From assembly GCA_018057705.1 (NCBI GenBank), contig JAGPDF010000025.1:1-57163 (forward strand): a stretch of 57,163 nucleotides of DNA. Reading direction: 5' to 3'. The notes below the pieces were generated by a model. That model was not told the DNA's origin and did not search any database. It saw nothing but the letters and a program-made list of their open reading frames with translations. This DNA comes from Thermoanaerobaculia bacterium (lineage in GTDB: Bacteria > Acidobacteriota > Thermoanaerobaculia > Multivoradales > JAGPDF01). The first letter of the stretch is position 1, and the number at the start of each line of letters is the position of its first letter. The position numbers and the translations under genes are program-made. This document shows positions 32,831-38,337 of this stretch, in pieces.

Positions 32831-32868
32831 GGCCCGGGCAATAGTCGCTTCTCGCCGGAGCCCGGGCC
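32831..32868 (+). promoter_or_regulatory. Strong inverted repeat upstream of the HTH-repeat gene
   Basis: A perfect 9-bp inverted repeat, GGCCCGGGC (32831-32839) and GCCCGGGCC (32860-32868), is separated by 20 bases. It ends 18 bases before the ATG at 32887. It could be an operator for the HTH-repeat protein, an RNA hairpin near its ribosome-binding site, or an end of an inserted segment. No T-run follows, so a terminator is unlikely. Confidence 0.5.
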
Positions 32869-32886: not shown

Positions 32887-33975
32887 ATGAAGCGGGGCGA
32901 GATCCGGAGTCGACGGCAACTCGAGAAGGAGGGGCCGCGCATCGCCGTGCGGCGCGGCCGGGCGGTGAACCGGCGGAAGTGGTCGGCGGCGCAGGTGAAG
33001 CTCCTGGGCAATCTCTCCGACGACGAGGTGGCGCTCCGCATCGGCTCTTCGCGCACCATCGTGCAGGCGGAGCGTGTGCGTCGCGGCATTCCGCCCTTCG
33101 CTCCTCGAAGCGGATCGCACGCCTGGACCGAGCGCGAGCTGGCCCTTTTGGGAACGGCCTCCGACGCGGCGGTAGCGGCCGAGCTCGGAGTGTCGCGACC
33201 CGTCGTGACGATCAAGCGCCGAATCCTCGGCATTCCATCCTTCAATGCTCCGCCTCACGACGCACACACAGTGAATTGGACTGCCGACGAGGAGGCGATG
33301 CTCGGCAAGGTCTCCGACGCACAACTTGCCGAGATCCTCGGGCGTTCGAGAGCGGCCGTATACCTGCGGCGGCGGATGTTGGGAATTCGGTCTTCGAAAC
33401 CGGGGCCGATCAAGATCCGCTGGACGAAGCGGCGGCTCGTGCGCCTGGGCAAGGACACTGACGATGCCATTGCACGCGAGCTCGGGGTTCATTCCTCTTC
33501 CGTGCAGCGCAAACGCCTGGAGCTCGGCATCGCCGCCTGGGTCGCGAAGGGCCCGGTCGTGGTTACGCGCGAGCTCAGGCGCCTACTGCGGTCGCCGAAC
33601 ACCGTCGTGCATGCGCGCACGGGACTCAAGAACGAGACCATCAACGATCTGCGCGAGAAAGTCGGGATCGCCGCGCCGCCGAACTTCATCGACACTCCGT
33701 GGACCCCCGAGGCGATCGCTCGGCTGGGCAAAGTCCCGGATGCCCGGCTCGCCGCCGAGCTGGGCGTTTGCCTGTCTGCCGTCCGCGGTCGAAGGCTCGC
33801 CGCGCAGCGCCCGCCCTCCCGACCTCAGCGGCGCTGGGCGGCCGGGGAAGTGAAGCTCCTGCGGAGCCGACTCTCGCTCGAGGCTCTTTCCGAGCGCCTA
33901 GGGCGCTCGGTGGCCACGATTCGAGCCAAACTGCACTACATGCGAAAAAAGCGGCAGCGCCGTGCTGCCGGCTGA
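32887..33975 (+). CDS. Tandem helix-turn-helix repeat protein
   Basis: This 362-residue basic protein is built of about seven tandem units of 45-51 residues. Unit starts lie at Trp32, Trp80, Trp131, Trp179, Thr227 (degenerate), Trp272 and Trp317. The unit pattern is W(T/S), an acidic helix, LG, (S/T/P)D, an A-LG(V/R)S helix, then V-x4-RR-x-LGI. The middle looks like a helix-turn-helix with a recognition helix after LGxSRxxV, similar to Myb/SANT-like or sigma-region-4-like HTHs. A modular DNA-binding role is the natural inference. A purine-rich GGGGGAA lies upstream of the ATG. It sits in a small island with VapBC and a methylase remnant. Confidence 0.8.
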   Translation: MKRGEIRSRRQLEKEGPRIAVRRGRAVNRRKWSAAQVKLLGNLSDDEVALRIGSSRTIVQAERVRRGIPPFAPRSGSHAWTERELALLGTASDAAVAAELGVSRPVVTIKRRILGIPSFNAPPHDAHTVNWTADEEAMLGKVSDAQLAEILGRSRAAVYLRRRMLGIRSSKPGPIKIRWTKRRLVRLGKDTDDAIARELGVHSSSVQRKRLELGIAAWVAKGPVVVTRELRRLLRSPNTVVHARTGLKNETINDLREKVGIAAPPNFIDTPWTPEAIARLGKVPDARLAAELGVCLSAVRGRRLAAQRPPSRPQRRWAAGEVKLLRSRLSLEALSERLGRSVATIRAKLHYMRKKRQRRAAG

Positions 33976-34033: not shown

Positions 34034-34240
34034 ATGAGCGAAGTGCAGAAGATCACTGTGGAAGTACCGGCAGAGTTGTTGGCGAAAGCGCGGGCGGCCA
34101 GCGGCGAAAGTTTGACGGCGACGGTGCGAGAAGGGCTGAGACTGGTCGCGGCGGGACAGGCATTCAAGAACCTGCGGGCGAAGCGCGGCAAGGTCCAGTT
34201 CTCCCAGACGCTGGCGACTCTCCGCGACGATCGGGAGTAG
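34034..34240 (+). CDS. vapB: VapB-type antitoxin
   Basis: This 68-residue protein has an N-terminal ribbon-helix-helix-like segment (KITVEVPAELLAKARAASGESLTATVREGL), which binds DNA, and a basic C-terminal tail (NLRAKRGKVQF) expected to wrap the toxin. The ATG at 34034 is chosen because the RHH strand starts three residues later. It lies 6 bases before the PIN-domain toxin gene, the usual antitoxin-first order. Confidence 0.85.
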   Translation: MSEVQKITVEVPAELLAKARAASGESLTATVREGLRLVAAGQAFKNLRAKRGKVQFSQTLATLRDDRE

Positions 34241-34246
34241 GCGGGA

Positions 34247-34627
34247 GTGATCGCGGCGGACACGAGCAGCTGGATCAGCTATCTTTCAGGAGAAGCAGGC
34301 GAAGACGTTACGATGCTCGATCGTGCCCTCGAACAAGGTCAGGTCTGCGTGCCGGTGCCGGTACTGACTGAGTTGTTGAGCAATCCAAGACTGGATGAAG
34401 GAACGGTCCAGGACCTACTCGAGCTGCCGCTCCTCGAGCCCACGCCAGGCTACTGGGTGCGCGCCGGCGGGTTGCGCGCGAAGATCATCGAAAAAGGCCG
34501 CCGCGCGCGGCTCGGCGATGCCCTCATCGCGCAACTGTGCATCGACCACAAGATTCAGCTCATTACTCGTGACCGGGACTTCCGCGCCTTCGTCGATGCG
34601 GGAGAGCTGTCGATTCTCTATTCCTGA
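34247..34627 (+). CDS. vapC: VapC-type PIN-domain ribonuclease toxin
   Basis: This 126-residue PIN-domain protein has the four acidic active-site positions: Asp5 in AADTSSW, Glu42 in VLTELL, Asp91 in LGDALIA and Asp109/Asp111 in TRDRDF. VapC toxins cleave tRNA or rRNA. The start is a GTG at 34247, 6 bases after vapB, consistent with coupling. All catalytic residues are present, so it should be functional. Confidence 0.9.
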   Translation: MIAADTSSWISYLSGEAGEDVTMLDRALEQGQVCVPVPVLTELLSNPRLDEGTVQDLLELPLLEPTPGYWVRAGGLRAKIIEKGRRARLGDALIAQLCIDHKIQLITRDRDFRAFVDAGELSILYS

Positions 34628-36186: not shown

Positions 36187-36277
36187 AATCACGATTCTAG
36201 GACGGATTCCAGGTGGGATTTCGAACCGGAGTCCATGGATGCGGGCCCCTCCGCGAGCTCTCGAGGATCTTCGATAC

Positions 36278-37312
36278 ATGGGTGCAATCAGGGTGGGTAT
36301 CGTCGGTTGCGGTCGAATCGGTCGCAACCTGGTGCGTATTCTCGGACGCTCTTCCGGGATCGAGTTGCGGGCGATCATCGATCCGGCCGATCCGGAGGGC
36401 ATCGAATACCTGCTCCGGTTCGACACCCTTCTCGGACGGTTCCCGGCGCCGATCTCCCGGCGTGACGGCATACTCGAGATCGACGGCCGCGAGGTCGCCC
36501 TGCTCGCTCCGCCGGTGGGCGCCGGTGGGGCGGGGGCGCCCGACTGGAAGGCGCTCGGCGTGGACATCGTCATCGAGGCGAGCGAGAGTCTGCAGAGTCG
36601 GGCGGCACTCGAAGCTCATCTCGCGAACGGCGCGTCGCGCGTGCTCCTCTGCTCGCCGCCGGTCGAGCCGCCCGACGCCACGATCGTGATCGGGGTCAAT
36701 GACCGGAGCCTCGCGGCGGAGCACCGCATCGTCTCGGCGGGCTCGGTCACGGCCAACTGCGCCGCGCCGGTCCTCAAGGTCCTGGCCGCGGAGTTCGGCC
36801 TCGAGCGCGTCTTCCTGACCACGGTGCACGCCTACTCGAACCACCTGCGCCTCGCCGACGTGCCCGCGGAGGACATGCGCAGCGGGCGCGCGGCGGCCGA
36901 GAACATCATTCCTCAGCCGACCAACGCCGACGAGCTGATCGCCGAGTTGGTGCCCGAGCTCGCCGGGAAAATCTCGGGATTGGCGGTCAATGTGCCGGTG
37001 GCGAACGGCTCGATCGTCGACCTCACCTGCTGGCACCCCGGCGCGGTCACGGTCGAGGCGATCAACGCCGCCCTGAAGAGCGCGGCCGATCAGGGCCTCT
37101 ACGGTGTCCTCGCCTACGAGACCGAGCCGATCGTCTCCTCGGACATTCTGCGCTCGACCTATTCGGGCACCTTCGATTCGCTGTCGACCATGGTCATCGG
37201 CGGCAAAGTGTCGAAGACACTTACCTTCTACGACAACGGCTGGGGCTACTGCCATCGCGTGATCGACCTCCTGCGCCGGCTCTCGACCTTCGCCGCGGGG
37301 GAGCAGCGATGA
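36278..37312 (+). CDS. GAPDH paralog lacking the catalytic cysteine
   Basis: This 344-residue protein aligns along its whole length with glyceraldehyde-3-phosphate dehydrogenase. It keeps the NAD-binding GCGRIGRN, His184 in TTVHAYSN and YDNGWGYCHRV near the end. The active-site block that reads SNASCTTNC in GAPDH reads SAGSVTANC here, so the nucleophilic Cys is Val157. The STGAAKAVG phosphate-binding segment is replaced by QPTNADEL, and the later Arg of FRVP is Asn (VNVP). It therefore cannot perform the normal reaction. An ATG at 36239 is an alternative start. It overlaps the canonical gap gene by 4 bases, so stoichiometric production is likely. Confidence 0.9.
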   Translation: MGAIRVGIVGCGRIGRNLVRILGRSSGIELRAIIDPADPEGIEYLLRFDTLLGRFPAPISRRDGILEIDGREVALLAPPVGAGGAGAPDWKALGVDIVIEASESLQSRAALEAHLANGASRVLLCSPPVEPPDATIVIGVNDRSLAAEHRIVSAGSVTANCAAPVLKVLAAEFGLERVFLTTVHAYSNHLRLADVPAEDMRSGRAAAENIIPQPTNADELIAELVPELAGKISGLAVNVPVANGSIVDLTCWHPGAVTVEAINAALKSAADQGLYGVLAYETEPIVSSDILRSTYSGTFDSLSTMVIGGKVSKTLTFYDNGWGYCHRVIDLLRRLSTFAAGEQR

Positions 37313-38337
37313 CCATTCGGGTCGGGATCAACGGCTTCGGACGTATCGGGCGCTCCGTCTTCCGGATCTTGAGCGACCGGGCGGACGTCGAGGTGGTCTG
37401 CATCAACGATCTCTTCGAGAACGAGCACCTCGCCTACCTGCTCGAGTACGACTCGGTAATGGGACCGTTCGGCAAGCAGGTGACTTTCGACGACGAAACG
37501 ATGGTCGTGGCCGGGCACTCGATCCGCATGACGGCGGAGAAGGATCCGGCGGCGATCCCCTGGGGCGAGCTCGGAGTCGACGTCGTGATCGAGGCGACCG
37601 GCGTCTTCAGGAGCCGTGAGAAGCTCGAACGGCACCTCGCAGGGGGCGCGAGGAAGGTGATCCTGACCGTGCCGCCCAAGGACGAGATCGACCGGATGAT
37701 CGTGATGGGAGTCAACGAGGGGCAGCTCGAGCCGACCGACCGTATCGTCTCGAACGCCTCGTGCACGACGAACTGCCTGGCGCCGATTGCCCGCATCCTC
37801 GACGAGGCCTTCGGCATCGAGGAGGGTTTCGTGACGACCGTCCATGCCTACACCAACGACCAGCGGCTCGCCGACGTCCCGCACAAGGACCTGCGGCGGA
37901 GCCGTGCAGCCTCGGCCAACATCATCCCGACCTCGACCGGCGCGGCGCGGGCCGTCGGCAAGGTGCTGCCGCGGCTCAAGGGCAGGCTCGACGGCGTGGC
38001 GCTGCGGGTGCCGGTGCCCGACGGCTCGCTGGTCGACTTCAGCTGCCGGCTGGCGAAGCGGCCGACTGTCGCCGAGATCAACGCTGCCGTGGAGCGCGCG
38101 GCCGCCTCCGACCTCGTGCGCATCGTCGAGTACAGCACGCGACCGTTGGTTTCGACCGACATCATCGGCAACGCGCATTCGTCCATCTTCGACGCCCTGT
38201 CGACCCAGAGCCTTGGCGACGGCTTCGCCCGCGTCGTCGCCTGGTACGACAACGAGTGGGGTTATTCGCAGCGGGTCGTGGACCTGCTCTTCCTGCTCTC
38301 CGGCGGCGGAGCGCAGCCCGTGAGGAGTGAATCGTGA
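37309..38337 (+). CDS. gap: Glyceraldehyde-3-phosphate dehydrogenase
   Basis: This is canonical GAPDH, 342 residues, catalysing NAD-dependent oxidation and phosphorylation of glyceraldehyde 3-phosphate. Motifs: GINGFGRIGR, SNASCTTNC with Cys152, TTVHAYTNDQR with the catalytic His, STGAARAVGKVLP and YDNEWGYSQRVVDL. Its start overlaps the cysteine-less paralog by 4 bases (ATGA) and its stop overlaps the ketoacyl-synthase-like gene by 4 bases (GTGA). No pgk or tpi is adjacent, which is unusual for a glycolytic gap gene. Confidence 0.96.
   Translation: MTIRVGINGFGRIGRSVFRILSDRADVEVVCINDLFENEHLAYLLEYDSVMGPFGKQVTFDDETMVVAGHSIRMTAEKDPAAIPWGELGVDVVIEATGVFRSREKLERHLAGGARKVILTVPPKDEIDRMIVMGVNEGQLEPTDRIVSNASCTTNCLAPIARILDEAFGIEEGFVTTVHAYTNDQRLADVPHKDLRRSRAASANIIPTSTGAARAVGKVLPRLKGRLDGVALRVPVPDGSLVDFSCRLAKRPTVAEINAAVERAAASDLVRIVEYSTRPLVSTDIIGNAHSSIFDALSTQSLGDGFARVVAWYDNEWGYSQRVVDLLFLLSGGGAQPVRSES

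Follow-up and report, generated by a model that had tools for sequence, protein, structure and literature searches.

Does a bacterial protein built of seven tandem helix-turn-helix (HTH) units read one long stretch of DNA, unit by unit, and what would such a reader do on a chromosome? The question is raised by a gene in a window of 57,163 nucleotides (the whole stretch of DNA analyzed), which is contig C25 of the 5.08 Mb genome of a Thermoanaerobaculia bacterium. The gene is single-copy in that genome, and its open reading frame, starting with ATG, encodes the 362-residue protein P0001. An initial annotation, made from the sequence, had divided the protein into repeats and had proposed that each repeat reads different bases. 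P0001 is probably a modular, sequence-specific double-stranded DNA-binding protein, the third helices of which would read one long asymmetric site, with a role as a regulator or blocker.

Units and predicted structure of P0001

A unit profile of 38 columns, built without rows from the window protein, located tandem units with starts at residues 32, 80, 131, 179, 272, and 317 and a weak match (231-247) in the degenerate unit placed from residue ~227 (Table 1), in agreement with the positions and the 45–51-residue spacing given in the initial annotation, and likewise separated six clear units (15.7–56.4 bits) from one degenerate unit (1.9 bits). The whole protein scores 205.5 bits, compared with a maximum of 10.3 bits in 500 shuffles of the same residues. 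The Pfam models HTH_23 and HTH_11 exceed their cut-offs in P0001; Myb_DNA-binding (PF00249) is not among its Pfam matches and matches only the relative L014, weakly. The AlphaFold2 model, the input of which included ten aligned relatives, contains exactly 21 main helices, which fall into seven sets of three, and the predicted structure thus bears out the earlier assignment of the units as HTH domains. In the model, unit 5 has all three helices despite its degenerate sequence. The mean pLDDT is 76.7, the pTM is 0.26, and the inter-unit linkers are of low confidence; therefore, the units are well-formed and their mutual placement in space is not predicted, for which beads on a string would be the natural reading of the model.

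Table 1. Features of the array gene and of the encoded protein P0001 (positions in the window).
Feature	Position	Strand	Basis
Seven-unit HTH array protein, 362 aa	32887..33975	+	ORF, unit profile, AlphaFold2
N-terminal basic tail, residues 1-31, predicted disordered	32887..32979	+	mostly pLDDT < 50 (residues 1-28); Arg/Lys-rich by inspection
Unit 1, residues 32-68	32980..33090	+	30.2 bits; helices 34-42, 45-52, 56-66
Unit 2, residues 80-116	33124..33234	+	49.2 bits; helices 82-87, 93-100, 104-114
Unit 3, residues 131-167	33277..33387	+	56.4 bits; helices 133-138, 144-151, 155-165
Unit 4, residues 179-215	33421..33531	+	39.1 bits; helices 181-187, 192-199, 203-213
Unit 5, sequence-degenerate, residues ~227-262	33565..33672	+	1.9 bits over 231-247 only; helices 228-234, 238-245, 249-259
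Unit 6, residues 272-304	33700..33798	+	44.2 bits; helices 274-278, 285-292, 296-307
Unit 7, residues 317-348, third helix runs to C-terminus	33835..33930	+	15.7 bits; helices 319-325, 331-338, 342-361

The structural neighbors of the modeled units include DNA-bound tandem homeodomains (DUX4 and engrailed), c-Myb, and GcrA, with Z-scores of 5–7, and the predicted units resemble DNA-binding domains of the Myb/homeodomain type. Sequence relatives of P0001 were not detected in the PDB, and Foldseek on the PDB returned no match at E <= 0.001. Several of the best structural neighbors are CDC5-type Myb domains of spliceosomes, as would be expected if the units bound RNA or proteins instead of DNA, like some Myb/SANT domains; however, the wider set of structural neighbors and matching families consists of DNA-binding HTHs, and the GIY-YIG nucleases fused to some relatives act on DNA by family, and we regard such a function as very improbable. 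In the favored mechanism, the seven Myb/homeodomain-like three-helix units, joined by short flexible linkers, would each insert the third helix into the DNA major groove, where unit positions 25, 26, 29, 30, and 33 would choose the bases, and the whole string would recognize one long asymmetric DNA site.

Family and genomic setting

A genome contig scan and further searches yielded 59 distinct arrays of 3–12 units in Acidobacteria, Verrucomicrobia, Planctomycetes, Shewanella, Pseudomonas, Bacteroidetes, and phages, and arrays were found in 82 plasmid records, mostly of Pseudomonas. Approximately ten array loci are present in one Verrucomicrobia genome (G099), and the plasmid pQBR103 alone carries five array genes, one of them at 306369-307286. 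The nearest relatives of P0001 are encoded in two Acidobacteria metagenome-assembled genomes of the same order, L002 (= L005) and L003 (= L006); at 32–33% identity the three proteins have a common seven-unit layout, and both orthologs likewise have a degenerate fifth unit. A 196-aa Cro/C1-type HTH gene overlaps the array gene start upstream in both relatives (L005:29-619; L006:3798-4388), which suggests translational coupling; it was considered as a needed partner and rejected as such, since it is missing from the genome of the window.

In the window, an FGase-family gene and a class-V aminotransferase gene lie upstream of the array gene on the opposite strand. Downstream are a small probable antitoxin gene without a Pfam match and a VapC-like PIN-domain gene, which together resemble a VapBC pair and follow the array gene immediately (34034-34627); beyond them lie DUF1015 and a co-directional pair of neighboring GAPDH-family genes (36239-38337), the first of which is more divergent. 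Defence-system models gave only weak HTH-like matches. An inverted repeat at ~32831-32868 was considered as an operator; it folds no better than shuffles of the same composition (z = 0.39) and is thus not a strong operator candidate, it was not listed by the repeat finder at its settings, and no sigma-70-like promoter was found near it.

Two groups of phage relatives bear on function. Of the proteins that have been studied, phage T5 D5 is the closest to the family; it carries the annotation of a DNA-binding protein required for replication and for late transcription. PHROG 323 (“transcriptional regulator, D5-like”) matches P0001 in three stretches with E = 2.6e-29, which may reflect unit-level similarity only; in a single BLASTP comparison the pairwise match of P0001 to T5 D5 is weak (E = 3e-4, 28% over 110 columns), and a viral origin was considered and rejected, as P0001 alone retrieves no close viral relative. 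In the second group, a GIY-YIG domain, above the Pfam cut-off, precedes three to six HTH units in one IMG/VR contig (L026:4674-5948) and three Vibrio phages (L029:3734-4774, L073:2785-3822, and L074:2713-3714). The three Vibrio phage fusions lie beside or within terminase genes, where homing nucleases are often located. In the phage relatives with such fusions, the array would most likely supply target recognition. The Pfam search found no GIY-YIG or other nuclease domain in P0001; without an attached catalytic domain, the protein would most likely be a site-specific regulator, or would block or mark a site.

These fusions also raise the prospect that P0001 is a decayed or domesticated targeting domain of a mobile element or a phage homing nuclease, its catalytic part lost and with no specific role now. 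The distribution is patchy, with the window-type gene present in 3 of the 72 genomes of the order, once in the genome of the window and with fragmentary copies in one relative. Against such decay, the reading frame is open over its full length, and another family of the order retains the seven-unit layout at the above identity. The genes around the array gene also give no hint of a mobile element, and the array gene does not differ in GC content from its flanks, leaving this origin improbable.

Other members of the family stand in different surroundings. An unnamed domain of ~110 residues before the arrays is shared by the N-terminal regions of L014 and L019 and by L130, its hosts being some Planctomycetes, Acidobacteria, and Verrucomicrobia members. 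Two unlike HTH arrays, of eight units (L011:6137-7543 = L128) and of seven units (L130:3346-4803), independently occupy the same position, immediately upstream of a cas4-cas1 fusion gene, and the former belongs to a full operon with Cas3, GSU0053, GSU0054, Cas2, and CRISPR repeats; among 30 cas4-1 loci inspected, these two have an array upstream.

Furthermore, pQBR103 (NC_009444; L077-L098) carries, over ~220-405 kb, approximately 80 copies of an asymmetric motif, nearly all in one orientation. The motif consists of [CG]TTCTG[GC]CAC[AG]C followed ~12 bases later by GANNATGG (in short form, TTCTGGCAC); above 20 bits, 64 copies lie on the + strand and one on the - strand, compared with none in a shuffle. 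The motif resembles a promoter or operator used across the plasmid. A copy also lies upstream of the gene for a six-unit array, where it is conserved from plasmid to plasmid. An autoregulatory site was considered for this conserved block before the megaplasmid array genes; since the block is one of the ~80 copies, that simple reading is unsafe.

Variation and conservation of the third helix

Over 160 units, the framework W1, L9, G10, D14, A18, L21, V28, R32, L35, and I37 is fixed, and the columns of highest entropy are 30, 26, 33, 25, and 29, all in helix 3 (columns 25-35 in the model), together with 12, 15, and 34. The unit-specific variation in homologs that the initial annotation had anticipated is thus found, with variable positions falling on the third helix. 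Columns 25, 26, 29, 30, and 33, selected partly by entropy, served as the recognition columns. Units of the same protein are nearly unrelated in them, being approximately 7–14% identical over a range of 4–18%, with ~7% in the megaplasmid proteins.

Two regimes are seen when orthologous proteins are compared. In the Pseudomonas megaplasmid pairs L028/L065 and L067/L088, all 45 of 45 recognition residues are identical, with pN = 0 and pS of 0.34-0.37 at their codons, compared with 154/204 for the other variable columns and linkers (Fisher P = 1.9e-5). By contrast, in L002/L003 (Acidobacteria) and L019/L056 (Planctomycetes) pN is close to pS, the recognition columns change faster than the framework, and 10/48 of them are identical vs. 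281/518 (P = 7.6e-6). The pairs pooled for these tests were selected with all 15 values in view, and the pooled P values are therefore descriptive. In single-pair tests, most of the 15 pairs show no difference, and only three reach P < 0.05: the recognition columns are more conserved in L018/L048 (Verrucomicrobia; 29/40 vs. 21/48, P = 0.009) and in L024/L025 (P = 0.04), and less conserved in L002/L003 (P = 0.04). The simplest reading of these alignments is that helix 3 of each unit would be separately constrained while the target is kept and fast-changing when the target changes. The pattern fits units that may read different DNA subsites with occasional retargeting, and this helix-3 variation is what would support DNA binding via the third helix. 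The proposal that each repeat reads different bases is accordingly borne out in part: it agrees with the megaplasmid proteins, where recognition residues are kept among units so unlike one another; in the window protein, 3 of 29 recognition residues are identical to those of L002, a background level, and none of the relatives found conserves them. The target of P0001, if any, thus differs from that of its relatives.

The same lack of conservation, together with the basic character of P0001, would also suit a weakly sequence-specific, D5-like coater of DNA, in which HTH units bind cooperatively to package DNA in bulk or to silence it generally, and differ from one another by drift. The relationship to D5 favors this reading, and in one T5-like phage D5 was an abundant protein of the virion (PMC8624392). 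Drift, however, leaves the complete conservation in the megaplasmids unexplained, as well as the unit-specific conservation in the Verrucomicrobia pair, and the nuclease-fused members need a specific target. We consider a coating function unlikely, though the most serious of the alternatives. Site-specific reading remains our preferred explanation. The computations show the units, their predicted fold, the family with its nuclease fusions, and the pattern of variation and conservation; we infer that P0001 binds DNA, with one subsite per unit, in a regulatory role.

Comparison with known systems

The fold, the tandem use of such domains, and the D5-like phage proteins as a named family are already known. 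Searches of the open-access literature for modular DNA binders made of tandem HTHs or HTH repeats returned no account of the array family, which is apparently undescribed, and none of long arrays with unit-specific recognition residues, of natural nuclease fusions, or of the two evolutionary regimes. More speculatively, and rather doubtfully as a generalization, the arrays may constitute a natural modular DNA-recognition system, in which each unit would read one subsite via five third-helix residues, duplication of units would lengthen the arrays to as many as 12, and changes in those residues would retarget an otherwise fixed scaffold. Few natural modular DNA readers are known (zinc fingers and TAL effectors), and HTH arrays, if this is true, would add another; a readable, engineerable code may then exist, and designed DNA binders might be derived from the arrays. 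The idea is open to direct testing in the Pseudomonas megaplasmids, several of which carry arrays with perfectly kept recognition residues.

Among studied proteins, T5 D5 is similar to P0001 in consisting of tandem HTH units, but it has fewer and more degenerate ones (approximately four weak units by the unit profile) and is phage-borne and linked to replication, whereas the seven-unit window gene is chromosomal and lies among metabolic and VapC-like PIN genes rather than in the phage replication cluster typical of PHROG 323. In a 2026 preprint, D5 is reported to trigger a retron, and the D5 HTH was modeled on the DNA of the retron (PMC13405049). GIY-YIG homing endonucleases are comparable through the phage relatives that carry the nuclease domain before the array, a domain that the window protein lacks. 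The likeness to TAL effectors and TALE-like proteins concerns only the way of working, i.e., a repeat array with a constant framework and few hypervariable residues per unit. TAL effectors form a two-helix solenoid in which one base is read per repeat; their 34-residue, two-helix repeats and two-residue code differ from the units of P0001, which are 45–51 residues long, three-helical, and independent HTH domains without a known code. The tandem Myb/homeodomain proteins, such as c-Myb, DUX4, SNAP190, and Reb1, are similar in their serial three-helix units and reading by the third helix. They usually have two to four units, whereas the arrays described here have 3–12, and of the Myb pattern the arrays keep just the first Trp.
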